A DNA stretch of 44,820 bases. It comes from an uncultured Dokdonia sp. GTDB lineage: Bacteria; Bacteroidota; Bacteroidia; Flavobacteriales; Flavobacteriaceae. The notes beneath the pieces were generated by a model that searched no databases, was not told the origin of the DNA, and was given only the letters and a program-made list of their open reading frames with translations. A program made the translations under genes and the position numbers. Shown piece by piece: positions 15,000-23,227 of the stretch (its first letter is position 1; every line of letters begins with the position of its first letter). Location of the stretch: the NCBI GenBank assembly GCA_913060645.1, contig CAJXSW010000010.1, positions 1-44,820 of the forward strand, written 5' to 3'.

Positions 15000-15572
15000 A
15001 TGAAAAAGAAAATCACAACAGCTTTACTAGCAATTATCGTCACTACGGGTGCATTTGCAAACACAAACCCAATTCTTAAAAAGGTTATTGTAAAAGAAAG
15101 CAGTATCAACTGGACTGGAAAAAAAGTATTAGGCCAGCACAATGGAACTATTGATCTTGTTTCTGGTTCACTAGAAATGGAAGATGGTAAACTAATAGGT
15201 GGAAATTTTGTTGTAGACATGACTACTATCGCAGTTACGGATCTTAAAGCAGGAGAAGGAAAAGAAAAATTAGAGGGACACTTGAACTCTCCAGATTTCT
15301 TTGACACTGCAAATCATAATGAAGCAACTTTTACTATTACAGAGGTTACAGAAAGTGCTACTGGATATAATGTTGTGGGAGACCTAACTATTAAAGGTCA
15401 TACAGAAACTGTATCAGTAAATATGGTTGTAAGTGAAAATACAGCCACCACTACTTTTAATGTAGACCGCACAAAATATGGAGTACGTTACGGATCGGCT
15501 TCATTTTTTGACAATTTAAAAGACAACGCAATCTCAGATAATTTTGAACTTGCTGTAAACTTGACTTTTTAA
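15000..15572 (+). CDS. YceI-family periplasmic lipocalin-like protein
   Basis: A 190-residue protein with a Sec signal peptide (about 1-20) and one YceI domain. Family landmarks are S-I-N-W-T-G-K-K at about 35-42, G-T-I-D-L-V-S-G-S-L, the conserved L-x-S-P-D-F-F-D-T segment at about 96-104, and the C-terminal D-x-T-K-Y-G-V-R-Y-G-S segment. YceI proteins bind polyisoprenoid or other amphiphiles in an elongated beta barrel. Pairing with a MarR regulator suggests response to a lipophilic or oxidising stress. Confidence 0.92.
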   Translation: MKKKITTALLAIIVTTGAFANTNPILKKVIVKESSINWTGKKVLGQHNGTIDLVSGSLEMEDGKLIGGNFVVDMTTIAVTDLKAGEGKEKLEGHLNSPDFFDTANHNEATFTITEVTESATGYNVVGDLTIKGHTETVSVNMVVSENTATTTFNVDRTKYGVRYGSASFFDNLKDNAISDNFELAVNLTF

Positions 15573-15596
15573 ATACAATCCCTAGATTATCCCGAG

Positions 15597-15633
15597 AAAA
15601 GCTCAATATTTAATTTTTATAGATTGAGCTTTT
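15597..15633 (+). terminator. Intrinsic terminator of marR-yceI
   Basis: Stem AAAAGCTCAAT / ATTGAGCTTTT (15597-15607 with 15623-15633) with a 15-base loop. Its right arm ends in the TTTA that could serve as -33 element of the trp promoter. Confidence 0.75.
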
Positions 15634-15660
15634 ATATTAACAAAGTGGTTACTATCTTTG
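15631..15660 (+). promoter_or_regulatory. Promoter of the trp operon
   Basis: TTTA (15631-15634), 18-bp spacer, TATCTTTG (15653-15660, perfect TAnnTTTG). The leader peptide ATG is only 8 bases after the -7 element, so the transcript is predicted to begin within a few bases of that ATG. Confidence 0.7.
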
Positions 15661-15668
15661 AATAACAA

Positions 15669-15725
15669 ATGAAAAACAATACAGTACATACTTGGTGGTG
15701 GATTACACAACAATCGTTGTCGTAA
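15669..15725 (+). CDS. trpL: trp operon leader peptide
   Basis: An 18-codon frame encoding MKNNTVHTWWWITQQSLS with three consecutive Trp codons (15693-15701), ending at TAA 15723-15725. Three Trp in 18 residues directly upstream of trpE, followed by a terminator, is the hallmark of ribosome-mediated attenuation. Translation reports on charged tRNA-Trp: a ribosome stalled at the Trp codons leaves 15718-15726 free, while one reaching the stop covers it. The predicted transcript starts almost at the ATG, so the leader may be read leaderless. I know of no reason to expect a stable functional peptide. Confidence 0.88.
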   Translation: MKNNTVHTWWWITQQSLS

Positions 15726-15777
15726 GCGCCTACCTATGTTTTTACATATACAGCCTGTCTTACGACAGGCTTTTTTT
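15707..15777 (+). promoter_or_regulatory. trp attenuator (alternative RNA structures)
   Basis: Three mutually exclusive pairings are visible. (1) Leader hairpin ACAAC/GTTGT, 15707-15711 with 15716-15720. (2) Antiterminator TGTCGTAAG/CTTACGACA, 15718-15726 with 15759-15767, 9 bp perfect. (3) Terminator AGCCTGTC/GACAGGCT, 15752-15759 with 15764-15771, loop TTAC, then seven T. The left arm of the antiterminator overlaps the leader stop codon. A ribosome at the stop therefore blocks it (terminator forms, high Trp), and one stalled on the Trp codons frees it (read-through, low Trp). Confidence 0.85.
15752..15777 (+). terminator. Attenuator terminator of the trp operon
   Basis: Stem AGCCTGTC / GACAGGCT with a TTAC loop and a T7 tract, lying between the leader peptide and trpE (45 bases before its start). 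A terminator here would make no sense without conditional read-through. Confidence 0.92.
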
Positions 15778-15821
15778 ATGCTCTCAAGTCGCCTTAAAGC
15801 CGACAATAATTTAAATGAATA

Positions 15822-17219
15822 ATGACATATAAATTAAAAACTTCCTCAAAACGCCTTCTGGCAGACACCATTACTCCGGTATCTGTATATCTAAGATTGC
15901 GTGACCGTTTTCCTAATAGTTTGCTGCTCGAGAGTAGTGATTATCATGCAAATGATAACAGTTTCTCATACATCTGCTGCAATCCTATCGCTTCCATAGA
16001 AGTGGGTAACGGCATCATAACACAGCAATTTCCAGATGGTAAAAGCGAGGAAATAACAATTACTGATGATACTAAAGTTGTGGGTGTTTTAGACGCTTTC
16101 GCGAAAGCGTTCTCATCTACAAAGACCGCTCATAAATTCATAAATAATGGCTTGTTTGGCTATTTATCGTATGACTCTGTGCAGTACTTTGAAGATCTAA
16201 AAATCTCCAAAAAAGAGGAAGATCTGAATATACCTGATATCTATTATGCGGTATATCAAAATATCATCGCTATCAATCACTTTAATAATGAAGCGCACAT
16301 CTTCTGCCACAATACTTCTGGAGAAAGTAATATTGAGGAGATAGAGCAAATGCTCAAGTCAAAAAACTTTGCCGAATATAAGTTTGCTCGTAATAATGAG
16401 CTTACCAGTAATATTACAGATGAGGATTATAAGGCACTCGTAGACACCTGCAAAAAGCACTGCCAGCGCGGTGATGTATTCCAGATTGTACCTAGCAAAC
16501 GATTCTCTCAGCAGTTTACTGGTGATGAGTTTAATGTATACAGAGCACTACGTAGTGTAAATCCATCTCCTTACTTATTCTATTTTGATTACGGAGATTA
16601 TAAGATTTTTGGGTCTTCACCAGAGGCACAAATCATTGTGCAAGATAGAAAGGCAGAGATTCACCCTATTGCCGGGACCTTTAAAAGAACAGGTAATGAT
16701 GAGCAAGATGCCATCCTTGCTAAAGAACTTGCAAAAGACGAGAAAGAAAACTCAGAGCACGTGATGCTTGTAGATCTTGCTCGCAATGACCTATCAAGAA
16801 ATGGACATGACGTTACGGTAGAGACCTATCGTGAGGTGCAGTTTTTCTCACACGTAATTCACCTTGTGAGTAAAGTAACTGGGCAAATGCATGAGGACAG
16901 TAATACACTACAAGTAGTGGCAGATACTTTTCCTGCAGGAACCTTAAGCGGAGCACCGAAGCACATGGCGATGCAGCTTCTCGAAAAATATGAAAACCGC
17001 AACAGAACGTTCTATGGAGGAGCGATAGGTTTTATGGATTTTTACGGTAATTTTAATCACGCGATTATCATACGTTCATTCTTGAGTAAAAATCACACAC
17101 TACACTGGCAAGCAGGCGCTGGTGTTGTATCAGGAAGTGATCCAGCTAAAGAATTACAGGAAGTTTATAACAAATTAGGAGCGCTTAATAAAGCACTTGA
17201 CATCGCAGAAGATATATAG
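15822..17219 (+). CDS. trpE: Anthranilate synthase component I
   Basis: A 465-residue enzyme that makes anthranilate from chorismate, with TrpG supplying ammonia. Recognisable family blocks are the N-terminal L-L-E-S-S feedback-site segment (about 33-37), N-P-S-P-Y-L-F-Y at about 248-255, G-S-S-P-E-A at about 265-270, D-E-K-E-N-S-E-H-V-M-L-V-D-L-A-R-N-D at about 307-324 and G-A-P-K-H-M-A. Palindrome copy 4 encodes D-A-F-A-K-A in the N-terminal third (about 91-96). It is the first structural gene after the attenuator. Confidence 0.97.
   Translation: MTYKLKTSSKRLLADTITPVSVYLRLRDRFPNSLLLESSDYHANDNSFSYICCNPIASIEVGNGIITQQFPDGKSEEITITDDTKVVGVLDAFAKAFSSTKTAHKFINNGLFGYLSYDSVQYFEDLKISKKEEDLNIPDIYYAVYQNIIAINHFNNEAHIFCHNTSGESNIEEIEQMLKSKNFAEYKFARNNELTSNITDEDYKALVDTCKKHCQRGDVFQIVPSKRFSQQFTGDEFNVYRALRSVNPSPYLFYFDYGDYKIFGSSPEAQIIVQDRKAEIHPIAGTFKRTGNDEQDAILAKELAKDEKENSEHVMLVDLARNDLSRNGHDVTVETYREVQFFSHVIHLVSKVTGQMHEDSNTLQVVADTFPAGTLSGAPKHMAMQLLEKYENRNRTFYGGAIGFMDFYGNFNHAIIIRSFLSKNHTLHWQAGAGVVSGSDPAKELQEVYNKLGALNKALDIAEDI
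16095..16108. repeat. Dispersed palindrome copy 4 (coding)
   Basis: Perfect GCTTTCGCGAAAGC inside trpE, read as A-F-A-K-A. Confidence 0.95.
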
Positions 17220-17222
17220 ATC

Positions 17223-17792
17223 ATGAAAAAGATATTAGTAATAGATAACTACGATTCCTTTGTGTACAATCTTGTACACTACCTAGAAGAATTAGATTGC
17301 ATCGTGACCGTAAAGCGCAACGACCAGTTTGCACTTGAAGATTGTGAACACTACGATAAGATCCTTTTATCTCCTGGCCCTGGAATTCCAGAAGAAGCTG
17401 GTTTATTAAAAGCGGTTATAAAGAAATATGCAGGTAGCATTCCTATTCTTGGAGTTTGCCTTGGACAGCAAGCTATAGGTGAAGTTTTTGGAGGATCGCT
17501 CATTAACCTTGATACTGTTTTTCATGGTGTAGCCACTCAAATAAATATTACCCAACCTGACACTGTACTTTTTAAAGATCTTAACGATGAGATTGAAGTA
17601 GGTCGTTACCACTCTTGGGTGGTGGCTACAGAAGATTTTCCACCAGCTTTAGAAATCACAGCGGTAGATAAAAATGGTCAGATTATGGCTTTACGTCATA
17701 GAGAGCTAGATGTCCGTGGTGTGCAGTTTCATCCAGAATCTGTACTTACTCCAGATGGAAAAACAATGATTAAAAACTGGGTTCTTAGTTAA
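17223..17792 (+). CDS. trpG: Anthranilate synthase glutamine amidotransferase
   Basis: A 189-residue class I glutamine amidotransferase. It has D-N-Y-D-S-F-V-Y-N at 8-16, L-L-S-P-G-P-G-I-P at about 48-56, the nucleophile motif G-V-C-L-G-Q-Q with Cys79, and the H-P-E-S block (about 171-174) completing the Cys-His-Glu triad. It supplies NH3 to TrpE; similar proteins can also serve PabB. It starts 3 bases after the trpE stop. The protein is unfused and of normal length. Confidence 0.96.
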   Translation: MKKILVIDNYDSFVYNLVHYLEELDCIVTVKRNDQFALEDCEHYDKILLSPGPGIPEEAGLLKAVIKKYAGSIPILGVCLGQQAIGEVFGGSLINLDTVFHGVATQINITQPDTVLFKDLNDEIEVGRYHSWVVATEDFPPALEITAVDKNGQIMALRHRELDVRGVQFHPESVLTPDGKTMIKNWVLS

Positions 17793-17802
17793 ACGTTTAG
17801 TT

Positions 17803-18324
17803 ATGAAGATTACACTACTACTTATATTGAGTTGCTTCTTGTTAATGGGAGGTTGCGATAGCACGCAGAAATCTGCTCAACCTGCTACTCAAACGGAGCC
17901 GGTGGTGGTAATCGAAGCATCTCCTGAGCCACTAAAAGAGGTGCTAACAGAGGAGAACACAGATGCTCATAAAAAACTGATTTTCAACACAAAATTAAGT
18001 GTGAGTCCAGAAAGGCCTAACTGGGTTCTGTTTTCAAACGGAACCTACGTTATATTTCCAAAAGGAACTAGTAAAGATGATATGCGCAAAAGCGCGATAG
18101 GTCTTTTACAACGCTACAATAATGAACCTTTTAAAGTAAGAAAATCACCTATCGTAAAAGGATGGGTAGCAAGCTCTCCAAAAGGCATTTATAATTATGT
18201 AGCGCTAGCACAAGCGAGCTCACGCCTAGCAACCAATAAAGAACTAGCAAGCATAGGAAAACAAAATGTGATGAAGGATAAAGAAAATCCTGTTATCGTT
18301 CATATCAACACACCAAAACAATGA
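17803..18324 (+). CDS. Lipoprotein of unknown function inside the trp operon
   Basis: A 173-residue lipoprotein (signal ending L-M-G-G-C, Cys18) followed by a Pro/Glu/Thr-rich linker (about 20-50). The rest is a small compact domain with W-V-L-F-S-N-G-T-Y-V-I-F-P-K-G at about 66-80 and G-W-V-A-S-S-P-K-G-I-Y-N-Y-V at about 120-133. I do not recognise the family. It lies 10 bases after trpG and its TGA overlaps the trpD ATG, so it is fully embedded in the operon. A function in tryptophan synthesis is not obvious for an envelope protein. Confidence 0.65.
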   Translation: MKITLLLILSCFLLMGGCDSTQKSAQPATQTEPVVVIEASPEPLKEVLTEENTDAHKKLIFNTKLSVSPERPNWVLFSNGTYVIFPKGTSKDDMRKSAIGLLQRYNNEPFKVRKSPIVKGWVASSPKGIYNYVALAQASSRLATNKELASIGKQNVMKDKENPVIVHINTPKQ

Positions 18325-19313
18325 AACACATACTCAACAGACTTATAAACCACGACCAACTCACAAAGACAGAAAGTCGTGAGGTACTCGTAAATATTTC
18401 TGAAGGAAAATATAATCACAGTCAGATTGCTTCTTTTCTCACAGTCTATATGATGCGTAGCATTACTGTAGATGAGTTAGAAGGTTTTAGAGACGCATTG
18501 CTAGACCTCTGTCTTGCAGTGGATTTTTCTGAGTATAATGTTATAGATCTTTGTGGTACTGGGGGTGATGGAAAAGATACTTTTAATATCTCTACACTTT
18601 CTAGTTTTATCACTGCTGGTGCTGGAGTAAACGTTACAAAACACGGTAATTACGGAGTGAGCTCTGTGAGTGGTAGTAGTAATGTGATGGAGCACCTTGG
18701 TATAAAATTTAGTAATGACAAGGATTTTTTAAAACGTTCTATGGATGAAGTGGGCATGTGTGTATTACACGCACCACTCTTTCACCCTGCTATGAAAAAT
18801 GTTGCTCCCATACGTAGAGAACTAGGTGTAAAGACCTTTTTCAATATGCTAGGCCCTATGGTTAATCCTGCGTTCCCAAGCAACCAGCTAGTGGGCGTTT
18901 TTAATCTCGAACTTGCTAGAATGTACGGATATTTATATCAAAAAGGTGATAAGAATTTTACCATACTACATGCCCTAGATGGTTATGATGAGATCTCACT
19001 TACGGGAGCCACAAAAGCAATTACTAATCATACAGAGATGATGCTCGAGCCAGCAGATTTTGGCGTAAGCCCGCTTCTACAAAAAGATATTTATGGGGGA
19101 GATTCTGTGGAGTCTTCGGCAAAGATATTTATGGATGTGATTTCTGGTAAAGGAACAGACGCTCAGAATAATGTAGTGTGTGCAAATGCAGGAATGGCGA
19201 TTGCAACTGTGCAAGGGTTAACTCCTCTTCAAGGATTTGAAAAAGCAAAAGAGAGTTTGTTTTCTGGTAAAGCAGCTCAAAAACTAAGCAAACTACAAGC
19301 CTTAAGCAACTAA
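18321..19313 (+). CDS. trpD: Anthranilate phosphoribosyltransferase
   Basis: A 330-residue enzyme transferring phosphoribose from PRPP to anthranilate. The PRPP-binding signature D-L-C-G-T-G-G-D-G-K-D-T-F-N-I-S is at about 76-91, and the K-H-G-N-Y-G-V-S-S-x-S-G-S and R-R-E-L-G-V-K-T-F-F-N-M-L-G-P blocks follow. The start overlaps the preceding lipoprotein stop by 4 bases (ATGA), typical of translational coupling. Confidence 0.97.
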   Translation: MKHILNRLINHDQLTKTESREVLVNISEGKYNHSQIASFLTVYMMRSITVDELEGFRDALLDLCLAVDFSEYNVIDLCGTGGDGKDTFNISTLSSFITAGAGVNVTKHGNYGVSSVSGSSNVMEHLGIKFSNDKDFLKRSMDEVGMCVLHAPLFHPAMKNVAPIRRELGVKTFFNMLGPMVNPAFPSNQLVGVFNLELARMYGYLYQKGDKNFTILHALDGYDEISLTGATKAITNHTEMMLEPADFGVSPLLQKDIYGGDSVESSAKIFMDVISGKGTDAQNNVVCANAGMAIATVQGLTPLQGFEKAKESLFSGKAAQKLSKLQALSN

Positions 19314-19314
19314 G

Positions 19315-20091
19315 ATGACGATACTAGATAAAATTACAGCAGATAAAATCAAGGAAGTAGATTTAAGGAAAAGCCTTATTCCTGTGAGCCAACTAGAGCA
19401 ATCTGTGCTTTTTGAACGAGACGTTATTTCGCTCGCTACGGCAGTGCGTTACGGTTCTGGGATTATTGCAGAGCACAAAAGAAGATCACCTAGTAAATCT
19501 GTTATAAATAATGGATTAAATGTACAAGACGTTGCTCGTGGTTATGAGCAAGCTGGCGTGAGCGGGATGTCGGTGTTGACAGATATGAAATACTTTGGTG
19601 GTGCACTAGATGATTTAATTATTGCTAGAGCAGCGACTAGTTTTCCGCTATTACGCAAAGAGTTTATAGTAGATGAATACCAGATTCTTGAAGCCAAAGC
19701 CTACGGTGCAGATGCGATATTACTGATTGCAGCTACGCTTTCGCGAAAGCAAATAGAGCAGTTTTCAACTTTTGCAAAAGGTCTTGGTCTCGATGTGCTT
19801 TGTGAATCTCACAATGAAGAGGAATTACAGAAGTCGATTATGCCATCTGTAGACATGCTAGGTATTAACAACCGAAATCTTAAGACCTTTGAAGTAAGTC
19901 TAGAAACGAGCAAGGAACTCATCAAACAGATTCCAGACGATTTTATAAAAATCTCAGAAAGCGGTATCAGTTCTGTAGAGGCAATCAAGGAATTAAAACC
20001 ACACGGTTTTCACGGATTTTTAATTGGTGAAAACTTTATGAAAACAGATAACCCAGGAGAGAGTGCAGCAACTTTTATAAAGCAATTATGA
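19315..20091 (+). CDS. trpC: Indole-3-glycerol-phosphate synthase
   Basis: A 258-residue TIM-barrel enzyme. It has I-I-A-E-H-K-R-R-S-P-S-K at about 50-61 (catalytic Lys), S-V-L-T-D-x-x-Y-F-G-G at about 86-96, R-K-E-F-I-V-D-x-Y-Q at about 114-123, and G-I-N-N-R-N-L-K-T-F and I-S-E-S-G-I blocks. It is not fused to TrpF. Palindrome copy 5 lies in the middle and is read in a different frame (L-S-R-K) from the other coding copies. It starts 2 bases after trpD. Confidence 0.97.
   Translation: MTILDKITADKIKEVDLRKSLIPVSQLEQSVLFERDVISLATAVRYGSGIIAEHKRRSPSKSVINNGLNVQDVARGYEQAGVSGMSVLTDMKYFGGALDDLIIARAATSFPLLRKEFIVDEYQILEAKAYGADAILLIAATLSRKQIEQFSTFAKGLGLDVLCESHNEEELQKSIMPSVDMLGINNRNLKTFEVSLETSKELIKQIPDDFIKISESGISSVEAIKELKPHGFHGFLIGENFMKTDNPGESAATFIKQL
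19737..19750. repeat. Dispersed palindrome copy 5 (coding, shifted frame)
   Basis: Perfect GCTTTCGCGAAAGC inside trpC, read as L-S-R-K instead of A-F-A-K-A. It is the only coding copy in this frame. Confidence 0.95.
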
Positions 20092-20486
20092 AGTTAAGAT
20101 ATAAAAAGAAAAAGCTTATTATTTATGCAGTGATTGCCATTGTATGGAGTGTACTTGGTATTACGTCCTTTATTGAAAATGAAAACAATTTCAGTAAGTA
20201 CTCGTACCTCGTGCTTGGTATCATGTACATTATAATATTTATATTATATCAACATCAAGGATATGCAAAGATTACCAATGGTGTTATAGTCGTTGGAGAA
20301 TTGAAGAAAAAAAGAATCTCCATTGACCAACTTATAGAGATTAAACACGTGGCTGGTGATTTTGTACTTGTTTCGGAAACAAATAAAGTAAGTCTTAGTA
20401 AGGATCAAGTGCGCGAGGAAGACTGGAAAGAGTTTATAGCAATCCCAAAGATTAAAGCCTTAGATCCACATCAATATAATTCTTAG
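20088..20486 (+). CDS. Small membrane protein inside the trp operon (PH-like?)
   Basis: A 132-residue protein with a basic start, two TM helices (about 10-28 and 38-55) and a C-terminal beta-rich segment of about 75 residues (Y-A-K-I-T-N-G-V-I-V-V-G...). The layout of two TM helices plus a small soluble domain recalls bacterial PH-like proteins, but I see no firm signature. The start overlaps the trpC stop by 4 bases (ATGA), so it belongs to the operon. Function unknown. Confidence 0.6.
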   Translation: MKLRYKKKKLIIYAVIAIVWSVLGITSFIENENNFSKYSYLVLGIMYIIIFILYQHQGYAKITNGVIVVGELKKKRISIDQLIEIKHVAGDFVLVSETNKVSLSKDQVREEDWKEFIAIPKIKALDPHQYNS

Positions 20487-20527
20487 AAGATTAAATAATT
20501 ACAATTAACCTCAATCGCAATCCTATC

Positions 20528-21175
20528 ATGAAAATCAAAATATGCGGCATGAAGTATAATACACAAGAGGTTGCTGCATTGCAGCCAGACTATCTTGGGT
20601 TTATATTTTATGAGAAAAGCAAACGAGATTTTGGCGACCTAGAGATTCCAGAATTACCTGAGGGAATTGACCGCGTTGGTGTTTTTGTGGATGCTGATAT
20701 TGCTTTCGCGAAAGCGAAAATAACACAGCATAACCTCAACGTAATCCAGTTACACGGAAGCGAGTCGCCAGCATATATAAATGAGCTTCAAGGTTGTCTG
20801 GTCGAGCGCAGTCGAGATCTTAAGATTTGGAAAGTTTTTGGAATAAAAGACAACTTTGATTTTGAAAAACTTAAGCCTTATGAAGGAATTGTGGATGGCT
20901 TCCTTTTTGACACCAAGGGAAAAGAAAAAGGAGGTAATGGATACACCTTTGACTGGAGTGTATTAAAAGATTACACGTCTCAAACACCTATTATTTTAAG
21001 TGGTGGCATAGGACTAGAAGAAGTAGAAAAAGTAACAGAAATACTGGCGACAGATTTACCTATTATCGCACTTGATGTAAATAGCAAGTTTGAAGATGAG
21101 CCAGGAATTAAGAATATAGGAAAATTGAAAAAGTTTAAAGCAGCGATTGCAGCGTTTACGCCGTCTCGCTCATAA
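20528..21175 (+). CDS. trpF: Phosphoribosylanthranilate isomerase with repeat-derived insert
   Basis: A 215-residue TIM-barrel isomerase. K-I-C-G-M at 4-8 contains the catalytic Cys6, F-V-D-A-D follows at 53-57, V-I-Q-L-H-G at 72-77, and I-I-L-S-G-G-I-G near the end. Two dispersed repeats lie inside the frame. Palindrome copy 6 encodes A-F-A-K-A at 59-63. A GTCGAG double repeat encodes about G-C-L-V-E-R-S-R-D at 89-97, between Q-L-H-G-S-E-S-P and K-I-W-K-V-F, where I would expect few residues in other TrpF proteins. The frame stays open, so the enzyme is presumably functional. Confidence 0.93.
20702..20715. repeat. Dispersed palindrome copy 6 (coding)
   Basis: Perfect GCTTTCGCGAAAGC inside trpF, read as A-F-A-K-A at residues 59-63. 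Confidence 0.95.
20794..20817. repeat. GTCGAG double-repeat element inside trpF
   Basis: The element contains GTCGAGCGCAGTCGAG (20801-20816), two GTCGAG units around CGCA, with a CTG just before it. I recognise this string as a short dispersed element of flavobacterial genomes, usually intergenic. Here it adds about 9 residues to TrpF without breaking the frame. Confidence 0.6.
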
Positions 21176-21185
21176 TACAATTGCT

Positions 21186-22388
21186 ATGAATACACTAGAA
21201 AAAGAAAAAAGTTACCAAGCAGACGAGAGAGGCTATTATGGAGATTTTGGAGGTGCATTTATTCCAGAAATGCTCTATCCTAATGTAGAAGAATTGCGCT
21301 CACAGTATGTACAAATCATGCAAGAGCCAGCCTTTCAAGAAGAGTTCAAACAACTTCTAATGGATTACGTAGGTCGCCCTACGCCGCTTTATTATGCCAA
21401 AAGATTTAGTGAGAAGTATGGCACTAAAGTTTACTTAAAAAGAGAAGATCTTTGTCATACAGGAGCTCATAAAGTAAACAACACGATAGGTCAGATTTTA
21501 ATGGCGCAGCGTCTAGGTAAAACTAGAATCATTGCAGAGACTGGTGCTGGACAGCATGGTGTTGCTACAGCGACCGTTTGTGCACTTATGGGACTAGAAT
21601 GTATCGTATACATGGGTGCTGTAGATATAGAGCGACAGGCTCCTAACGTGGCTCGTATGAAAATGTTAGGAGCAACCGTGCGCCCAGCAATGTCTGGAAG
21701 TAGAACACTTAAAGATGCGACTAACGAAGCGATACGCGACTGGATCAACAATCCAGTAAACACGCACTACATCATAGGTTCTGTAGTAGGGCCACACCCA
21801 TATCCAGATATGGTAGCTCGTTTCCAGTCGGTGATTTCTGAGGAGACTAAGAAACAATTATTAGAAAAAGAAGGAAAAGAAAATCCTGACTATGTAGTGG
21901 CCTGTGTAGGTGGTGGTAGTAATGCTGCTGGATTATACTATCATTATCTAGATCAACCAGATGTAGGCATTATTGCTGTAGAAGCTGCTGGAAAAGGTGT
22001 AGATACTGGTGAGAGTGCTGCAACATCTGCACTGGGACGTGAGGGAATTATACACGGAAGTAAGACCTTATTAATGCAAACAGACGACGGGCAGATTACA
22101 GAGCCTTATTCTATTTCTGCTGGTCTTGATTATCCAGGTGTAGGACCTATGCACGCAAACCTCTTCCGCTCTGGACGTGGGGAGTTTATCTCTGTTACAG
22201 ATGAAGATGCGATGACAGCTGGACTAGAATTAAGTAAGCTAGAAGGAATTATACCTGCGATAGAAACAAGTCATGCGCTCGCTATTTTTGAAACCAGAAA
22301 ATTCAAAAAAGATGATATTGTAGTGATCAATCTTTCGGGACGTGGAGATAAGGATTTGAATACCTATATCGATTATTTCAAATTATAG
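21186..22388 (+). CDS. trpB: Tryptophan synthase beta subunit
   Basis: A 400-residue PLP enzyme joining indole and serine. The start ATG 21186 gives the usual N-terminus ending in [13 protein letters not shown]; an upstream in-frame ATG (21147) would overlap trpF and add 13 unrelated residues. The PLP lysine is in [10 protein letters not shown] (Lys96), the phosphate loop is G-G-G-S-N-A-A-G, and the C-terminal S-G-R-G-D-K-D block is present. Confidence 0.97.
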
Positions 22389-22395
22389 AAGCACG

Positions 22396-22409
22396 CTTTC
22401 GCGAAAGCA
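22396..22409. repeat. Dispersed palindrome copy 7
   Basis: Perfect GCTTTCGCGAAAGC, 7 bases after the trpB stop and within the trp operon. Confidence 0.95.
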
Positions 22410-22428
22410 AAAAAACATCAATAATAAA

Positions 22429-22448
22429 TTCCCGCCTACGCGGGAATG
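22429..22448. repeat. REP-like hairpin between trpB and trpA
   Basis: ATTCCCGC-CTAC-GCGGGAAT, 8-bp perfect stem with a 4-base loop, followed by GAC. This is the form of the widespread REP-like hairpin CCCGCnTnCGCGGG seen in many bacteria. It has no T tract, so it is not an intrinsic terminator. It may affect mRNA stability between trpB and trpA. Confidence 0.75.
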
Positions 22449-22465
22449 ACAAAATATTTATTCAG

Positions 22466-23227
22466 ATGAATAGAATAAAACAAAAATTACAAGAAGATAA
22501 AAAGCTACTAAGCTTATACTTCACTGCTGGATATCCAGCGATAGATGATACTGTTTCTATCTTAACGCAGCTTCAAGAAAGCGGTGTAGATATGGTGGAG
22601 ATAGGATTACCTTTTTCTGATCCGCTAGCAGATGGGCCTACTATTCAAGAGTCAAGTACTGCTGCGCTTCATAACGGAATGACTACCGAAAAACTGTTTA
22701 GCCAGTTGGACGGTATTCGTGAGACCATTCATATTCCGCTTATTGTGATGGGTTACTTTAACCCGATGTTGCAATATGGCGTTGAGAAATTCTGCAAGCG
22801 TTGTCAAGAAATAGGTATCGATGGTATTATCATGCCAGATTTACCACTAGCAGAATACGAAGCGGAGTATAAAGCAATCTTTGAAAAATACGGACTTATA
22901 AACGTGTTTCTCATTACTCCTCAAACGAGTGATGCGCGCATCCAGCAACTAGATGCAGCAAGTGATGGCTTTATCTATATGGTGAGTAGCGCGAGTACTA
23001 CGGGTGGTACTAGCGGCTTTAGTAATACGACTTCAGATTACTTTGAGCGCATCGCAGCAATGAATCTAAAGAGCCAGCAAATTGTAGGATTTGGTATTAG
23101 TAATGAAGAGACATTTAAAGCAGCAACTACACACCAAAAAGGAGCCATTATAGGAAGCGCTTTTATAAAGCATATTACTAAGAATGGAGCAAATAGTGTT
23201 GCTAGCTTTGTAGAAACCATAAGATAA
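22466..23227 (+). CDS. trpA: Tryptophan synthase alpha subunit
   Basis: A 253-residue TIM-barrel lyase that cleaves indole-3-glycerol phosphate and channels indole to TrpB. The catalytic pair is Glu45 (M-V-E-I-G-L-P-F-S-D-P) and Asp56 (L-A-D-G-P), and the phosphate-binding S-S-A-S-T-T-G and F-G-I-S segments follow. It is last in the operon, separated from trpB by 77 bases that hold two different palindromic elements. Confidence 0.97.
   Translation: MNRIKQKLQEDKKLLSLYFTAGYPAIDDTVSILTQLQESGVDMVEIGLPFSDPLADGPTIQESSTAALHNGMTTEKLFSQLDGIRETIHIPLIVMGYFNPMLQYGVEKFCKRCQEIGIDGIIMPDLPLAEYEAEYKAIFEKYGLINVFLITPQTSDARIQQLDAASDGFIYMVSSASTTGGTSGFSNTTSDYFERIAAMNLKSQQIVGFGISNEETFKAATTHQKGAIIGSAFIKHITKNGANSVASFVETIR

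Follow-up and report, generated by a model that had tools for sequence, protein, structure and literature searches.

In 2010, Weinberg et al. listed Bacteroid-trp (RF01692) among the likely cis-regulatory RNAs of Bacteroidetes (PMC2864571). The parts drawn on here of two later papers locate it ahead of the trp operon of Flavobacterium psychrophilum, where it was likened to Escherichia coli attenuation (PMC6414381), and report strong indications that amino-acid operons of that species are preceded by leader-peptide attenuators, with conserved 5' elements before pheA and hisG (PMC9723704). We analyzed a window of 44,820 bases (contig C10) from the draft genome (3.1 Mb, 89% complete) of an uncultured Dokdonia sp., and found that trpE is preceded by what is very probably a transcription attenuator of the trp operon, ribosome-mediated and, as judged by sequence, homologous to the Bacteroid-trp leader RNAs. 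Dokdonia is a genus of the Flavobacteriaceae. The core of the finding, flavobacterial trp attenuation, is already in print, and RNA of this kind has been described in the phylum since 2010. An earlier sequence-only reading of this DNA had suggested that such attenuation would be new to Bacteroidetes; we reject that suggestion because RF01692 covers the element and flavobacterial leader-peptide attenuation is reported in the sources above. What is added in this analysis is the covariation of the individual arms, a predicted 5' untranslated region (UTR) of about 4 nucleotides (nt), and copies of the element that are orphaned, lie before a TrpB2 gene or carry Lys codons. Of these, the copies with Lys codons, the use before TrpB2, the orphan and the start so near the mRNA 5' end may be new.

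The promoter and attenuator consist of the following features.

15653-15660, + strand: -7 promoter box TATCTTTG (TAnnTTTG) of the Bacteroidetes type, from the sequence and the literature position
15669-15725, + strand: leader open reading frame (ORF) MKNNTVHTWWWITQQSLS, 18 codons plus stop, from the sequence; Trp-rich leaders lie in the same place in relatives
15693-15701, + strand: three regulatory Trp codons (codons 9-11), from the sequence; conserved in relatives
15694-15734, + strand: protector hairpin, 16 predicted pairs, from folding, with modest comparative support
15718-15726, + strand: antiterminator left arm (element 2), complementary to 15759-15767 at all 9 bases, with compensated changes
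15735-15748, + strand: small A+U-rich hairpin within the antiterminator loop, from folding
15752-15777, + strand: intrinsic terminator with an 8-bp stem, loop TTAC and T7, from the sequence, folding and arm covariation in genus representatives
15759-15767, + strand: antiterminator right arm (element 3), complement of element 2, with compensated changes

The leader begins with ATG at 15669-15671 and ends with a TAA stop codon (15723-15725) that sits inside the antiterminator left arm, TGTCGTAAG, which is the exact reverse complement of CTTACGACA (element 3) over 9 bp. The terminator stem pairs 15752-15759 with 15764-15771 and is followed by the T run at 15771-15777. Element 3 is made up of the last base of the terminator left arm, the loop and part of the right arm, and terminator and antiterminator are mutually exclusive in that bases 15759 and 15764-15767 are common to both. 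The sequence-only reading had picked out the 18-codon leader with its three successive Trp codons, the 9-bp antiterminator with its left arm over the leader stop and the competing terminator with T7, and all three are present at the bases it gave. Its 5-bp leader hairpin (15707-15711 with 15716-15720) also exists but is only the tip of a predicted 16-bp protector hairpin, where 15694-15700 in the Trp codons are paired with 15727-15734 downstream of the stop, element 2 is paired inside and 15703-15711 with 15716-15725 forms the tip. The stretch 15664-15785 folded at -34.2 kcal/mol, compared with a mean of -20.2 (standard deviation 3.2; z -4.4) for 200 dinucleotide shuffles, of which 0/200 were as good. 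A search of the genome for exact matches to the window's own terminator-core 11-mer, TTACGACAGGC, found no second copy, the sequence occurring once.

We then compared the regions upstream of trpE across the family. TrpE was found at E <= 1e-80 in 182 of 199 family genomes, taken one per genus; the TrpE matches listed comprised 149 relatives, the upstream regions of 148 of which (L005-L152) were analyzed, and G146, read after the counts, has both leader and terminator. Together with 80 named loci and the window itself, these 148 genus representatives give 229 upstream regions, which is not a number of independent species because the two sets partly overlap (L008 and L160, for example, have the same leader). 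A strict pattern recovered the terminator in 215/229 regions and, for 213 of the 215, a Trp leader as well; the two without a Trp leader, L191 and L028, both start at a contig end, and L028 retains TGGTGGTGG. Reading the 14 pattern misses revealed leader and hairpin in 13, the last (L210) entering a run of N's, so that overall Trp codons are present in 228/229 regions and the terminator in 228/229 (the misses being the contig end and the N run). Among the 213 scored leaders, 199 have three Trp codons, 10 have two, 3 have four and 1 has one; in 187 the first Trp stands at codon 9 when codons are numbered from the nearest ATG. By sequence comparison, therefore, the leader-terminator anatomy exceeds chance in that it recurs upstream of trpE family-wide, and a lack of any conserved Trp-rich leader in relatives, one of the outcomes that the sequence-only reading had named as fatal to its proposal, did not occur.

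The pairing of elements 2 and 3 is maintained through compensated changes. Element 2 was located by its likeness to the consensus, independently of its own partner, and the pairing was scored in 226 of the 229 loci, L191, L210 and L131 having been dropped by the pattern. The consensus is TCGTGA:TCACGA, and its UGA is often the leader stop codon. In the window and three Dokdonia loci (L153-L155) the pair is the compensated TCGTAA:TTACGA, which is also found in L132 with a dissimilar leader, and in L138 both sides are changed and the pairing is kept (GTCGCAA:TTGCGAC). Six or seven consecutive standard pairs are present in 212/226 loci, the longest run over the seven columns being 7 in 86, 6 in 126, 5 in 11 and fewer in 3. 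For 13 distant RF01692 loci, we took the longest uninterrupted Watson-Crick run between each leader and its own or a swapped terminator, and only 3 of 20,000 partner permutations reached the summed pairing of the leaders with their own terminators. This measure was picked after a first look with an RNAduplex test, which was noisier because it allowed bulges and because its fixed stretch missed the element in L236. The pairing sequences of L236 (10 bp) and L242 (7) are unlike the consensus; L240 pairs 8.

The terminator arms are GGCTTGTC/GACAAGCC in 111 of the 148 genus representatives, an identity seen although the antiterminator fixes only part of them. Elsewhere the arms covary, as AGCCTGTC/GACAGGCT in 6, GGCCTGTC/GACAGGCC in 5 and GGCTTATC/GATAAGCC in 4, and 15 representatives have GGCTTGTC/GACAGGCC, with a G-U pair. 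The sequence-only reading had put forward covariation of the three stems as a check on its proposal; terminator and antiterminator do covary, whereas the leader hairpin receives modest support. Covariation assigns every arm of the switch, so that precise mutants can easily be designed.

The match to RF01692 spans 15649-15759, covers the full model (1-131; 40.7 bits, E 0.0013 to 0.0018) and is the only one in the draft genome at E <= 1. Across the family, 172/199 genomes match at E <= 1, the weak ones among them perhaps including chance matches and Lys-codon copies, and 122/199 are over the cut-off; across the phylum, under stricter filters, at least 35/296 match at E <= 0.01. Among the genus representatives whose upstream region was read, 117/149 are over the cut-off, and the curated Rfam cut-off therefore under-annotates true members. 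The window element resembles Bacteroid-trp in its phylum, in its place before the trp genes (trpE-trpA) of a Bacteroidetes genome, in the short Trp-codon leader ORF (15669-15725) inside the matched stretch and in the consensus hairpin over the Trp codons, which is present with eight model-alignment positions not in a standard pair. It adjoins trpE, as do the elements of relatives over the cut-off (e.g., G190, G027 and G090), and, as expected of an attenuator, its leader ORF is rich in the cognate codon (WWW) and conserved. It departs from RF01692 in its terminator arms and in having UAA rather than UGA within element 2. In the alignment, the model ends with the terminator left arm, the antiterminator right arm lying outside it except for the first base.

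RF00513, the Rfam model of the E. coli trp attenuator, gave no match in the window at its gathering score or in 15550-15850 at E <= 1. The two systems have in common tandem Trp codons and a competing protector, antiterminator and terminator; the antiterminator of the window, unlike that of E. coli, joins the region around the stop codon to the loop and right arm of the terminator, and use of a Shine-Dalgarno site is unexpected in Bacteroidia. The trpL leader of Sinorhizobium meliloti contains three Trp codons. In the part of the source consulted, that leader ORF (trpL/rnTrpL) likewise lies at the extreme 5' end of its transcript (PMC7298713), with a UTR of 0 nt against the predicted 4 or so in the window, and it has a trans role for which the window element has no known counterpart. 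The F. psychrophilum attenuators belong to the same family and have the same predicted mechanism; as described in the portion drawn on here, they rest on transcription maps and structure prediction, and no per-arm covariation was seen in that portion (PMC9723704).

The position of the promoter box suggests that translation begins close to the 5' end of the mRNA. According to the same portion of that source, the F. psychrophilum sigma-A box TAnnTTTG occupies positions -12 to -5 (PMC9723704), and applying this position (UTR length being the box-to-ATG distance minus 4) predicts a transcription start in the window at about 15665 and a 5' UTR of about 4 nt. A box lies within 60 nt of the ATG in 138/148 genus representatives (4 have no box and 6 no scored ATG), compared with 225/2960 shuffled 66-nt upstream stretches; the predicted UTR among the 138 is <=2 nt in 30, 3-8 nt in 35, 9-20 nt in 67 and longer in 6. 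The three Dokdonia loci have TAnnTTTA in place of TAnnTTTG. Such a near-leaderless start is not unique, because a leaderless trpL is known in Sinorhizobium, by the excerpt used above (PMC7298713), and for F. psychrophilum overall the corresponding text gives 5.5% of mRNAs as leaderless (PMC9723704). Bacteroidia ribosomes do not use Shine-Dalgarno sites, as stated in the part consulted of PMC9976891. The classical attenuation logic is seen here laid out across a lineage without Shine-Dalgarno use, with leader ORFs often near the mRNA 5' end.

From the conserved leader, terminator and antiterminator, and from the covariation of their arms, we infer the start site, ribosome positions, folding order and tryptophan response in the following scheme. 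Transcription would begin about 4 nt upstream of the leader AUG, at which a ribosome would initiate without a Shine-Dalgarno site. When charged tRNA-Trp is scarce, the ribosome would stall on codons 9-11, breaking the protector hairpin because it sits on the left arm of that hairpin, and leaving 15718-15726 free to pair with the emerging 15759-15767 before the terminator right arm is complete, so that RNA polymerase would continue into trpE. With ample tryptophan, the ribosome would reach the stop codon inside 15718-15726 and block the element, and the terminator would form. If the leader is not translated, the protector hairpin would hide 15718-15726, and the terminator would form as well. 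Each RNA was masked up to the ninth base past the Trp codons, or to just before element 2 if that was closer; for masked RNA ending at element 3, the antiterminator (>=5 pairs) was the predicted fold in 224/225 loci (L028 was skipped).

Several results weigh against this account. The window element does not reach the RF01692 gathering score of 49 bits, and a standard Rfam scan omits it because its score is below that value; the cut-off is a detection threshold and not a biological trait. The compensated changes are given locus by locus, not as separate events on a tree. Five or fewer consecutive pairs between elements 2 and 3 are present in 14/226 loci (the weakest being L093, L121, L146 and L179), and by uninterrupted Watson-Crick runs the own pairing is not clear-cut in 4 of the 13 distant loci (L234, L235, L238 and L244) or, of ten family loci measured alongside, in L018 and L121. 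The protector hairpin is only modestly supported, its pairing exceeding the shuffle control by a modest margin (pairing of the Trp codons 3' of element 2: 122/147 representatives versus 960/1470 tail shuffles). Finally, the complete terminator is the more stable masked fold in 187/225 loci, the window included (-17.9 kcal/mol with the terminator versus -10.5 when its left arm is kept from pairing), the antiterminator remaining the most stable fold in the other 38; in those 187 loci, therefore, folding order must decide antitermination. Folding order is generally held to decide antitermination in E. coli trp.

The element was also found away from trpE. Seventeen family genomes had no TrpE match, and 7 of these matched RF01692 at E <= 1, none over the cut-off; we inspected five of the seven (G167, G053, G055, G022 and G089). 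In G167 (L253) and G053 (L255), a trp attenuator stands before a TrpB2 gene (TIGR01415), a pairing that perhaps serves the use of external indole, and nothing on trp attenuation with trpB2 in Bacteroidetes was found in the openly licensed literature. G055 (L233/L252) has an orphan attenuator with an intact WWW leader, TCGTGA:TCACGA and a terminator. Its next gene is convergent (kdotransferase-like), no trp gene was found in the 3.3 kb downstream, and the copy is either a relic or a free-standing small RNA. Among the more distant members of the class, the element lies before trpB in L235 (TIGR00263) and before trpD in L241 and L243 (PF00591 and PF02885).

Unexpectedly, G022 (contig C56) and G089 (contig C258), two of the genomes lacking a TrpE match, carry the consensus switch module TCGTGAGC, followed by GGCTTGTCATCACGACAAGCC and a T run, directly before an aspartokinase gene and without Trp codons. 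The encoded aspartokinases are over the cut-off of TIGR00657 and nearest to the lysine-sensitive type, below the cut-off of that type. The frames that end at the UGA of TCGTGA read ...NKKDKKVHLRRTS and ...FKQKDKKIYLRRMS up to the stop, with only TTG or GTG as starts. Lys-rich candidate leaders, ...KKDKKVHLRRTS and ...KQKDKKIYLRRMS up to the stop, were noted in the loci of these two genomes (L254, L256, L262 and L263). The terminator arms are the same as in the trp set (GGCTTGTC/GACAAGCC), and the RF01692 model also catches these Lys-codon leaders. By sequence, the two copies look like the trp switch re-coded for lysine, which would entail translation of the leader and a response to lysine. Among the matches listed for the openly licensed literature, no title dealt with leader peptides for lysine or aspartokinase in this phylum.

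We tentatively propose, as a possibility that falls a little short of an even chance, a codon-swapped family in which one switch module (TCGTGA around the leader stop and then the GGCTTGTC-TCAC-GACAAGCC terminator) has been put to use more than once, with Trp codons ahead of trp operons or TrpB2 genes and with Lys codons (KKDKK or KQKDKK) ahead of an aspartokinase gene. Variation would be limited to the regulatory codons and the spacing between promoter and AUG, with the leader often starting no more than 8 nt from the 5' end of the mRNA. Should the Lys-codon copies prove real, re-coding of the same switch for another amino acid would be a clean natural experiment on attenuator evolution. In the window genome itself, no leader was recognized in the 880 bases upstream of the open frame of the homoserine dehydrogenase gene when these were inspected for T runs. 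A His leader (MNNNNTHHHHTSIIAQAR, then stop) with a terminator behind it and a TAAATTTG box 7 nt before its ATG precedes hisG (L248:1202-1258, contig C40) and is likely, on sequence grounds, to be a his attenuator, and a Phe/Tyr-rich leader (MLSNVYYWNNFFYFFFYGKRSGLILC, then stop) with a terminator precedes the prephenate dehydratase gene (L249:1347-1427, contig C3) and is likely a pheA attenuator. These would be counterparts of the F. psychrophilum hisG and pheA 5' elements, as far as the portion consulted describes them (PMC9723704).

Could the same anatomy arise without tryptophan sensing by a ribosome? A constitutive intrinsic terminator accompanied by a chance short ORF would fit the fact that the evidence on the window genome comes from sequence, and short ORFs are presumably common in A+T-rich intergenic DNA; but Trp codons in the same place in 228/229 regions, three of them in 199/213 scored leaders, together with the covariation of elements 2 and 3, make this explanation highly improbable. 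In other phyla, trp genes are served by TRAP, TrpR or T-boxes, and such a Trp-binding protein (TRAP or repressor-like) or a T-box might be in control here, with the leader peptide secondary. We give this almost no credence and rejected these candidates after the searches returned no match: neither PF02081 (TRAP) nor PF01371 (TrpR) was found in the genome, which is 89% complete, and no T-box was among the Rfam matches of the window at gathering score or of 15550-15850 at E <= 1.

The terminated RNA of about 110 nt could itself be the main product: attenuation would generate it, and it would then act in trans on other mRNAs. The identity of the GGCTTGTC/GACAAGCC arms in 111/148 genus representatives goes beyond the needs of pairing, the orphan copy is intact without an adjoining codirectional gene, and rnTrpL of Sinorhizobium offers a precedent in the excerpt already cited (PMC7298713). 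We nevertheless consider this improbable: it names no target mRNA, element 3 fixes part of the terminator, the terminator common to the Lys-codon leaders may simply reflect common descent, and the orphan, whose genome is small and 86% complete, may be a relic. Ribosome-mediated trp attenuation, as the sequence-only reading had proposed, is the reading supported by the conserved Trp-rich leader and by the covariation of terminator and antiterminator.

The trp operon behind the attenuator is complete and runs on the + strand from the start of trpE to the end of trpA, in the order trpE, trpG, ORF 17803, trpD, trpC, ORF 20088, trpF, trpB, trpA (ORFs, Pfam and NCBIfam).

15822-17219, + strand: trpE, first structural gene of the operon, for anthranilate synthase component I (Pfam PF04715 and PF00425)
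17223-23227, + strand: remainder of the operon, trpG to trpA (ORFs and Pfam; trpB by NCBIfam TIGR00263)

The closest named relatives of its TrpE are those of the three Dokdonia loci (80-83% identity), so that the DNA probably comes from a Dokdonia-like flavobacterium. ORF 17803-18324, within the operon, encodes a lipoprotein-like protein of 173 amino acids with no Pfam match, whose kin were seen only in the three Dokdonia loci when the long loci (118 with trpG) were searched. ORF 20088-20486, between trpC and trpF, encodes 132 amino acids with hydrophobic segments and also has no Pfam match. Upstream of the attenuator lie a YceI-like gene (Pfam) and, near 15600-15633, a terminator-like hairpin read from the sequence. 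In 9 of the 229 loci (L177, L187, L196, L207, L216, L217, L219, L228 and L116), an ORF of the GIY-YIG kind (71-101 amino acids) is found between the attenuator terminator and trpE, the L177 copy having been assigned by a PF01541 scan and the other eight by likeness; six of these nine loci are named Flagellimonas or Muricauda.

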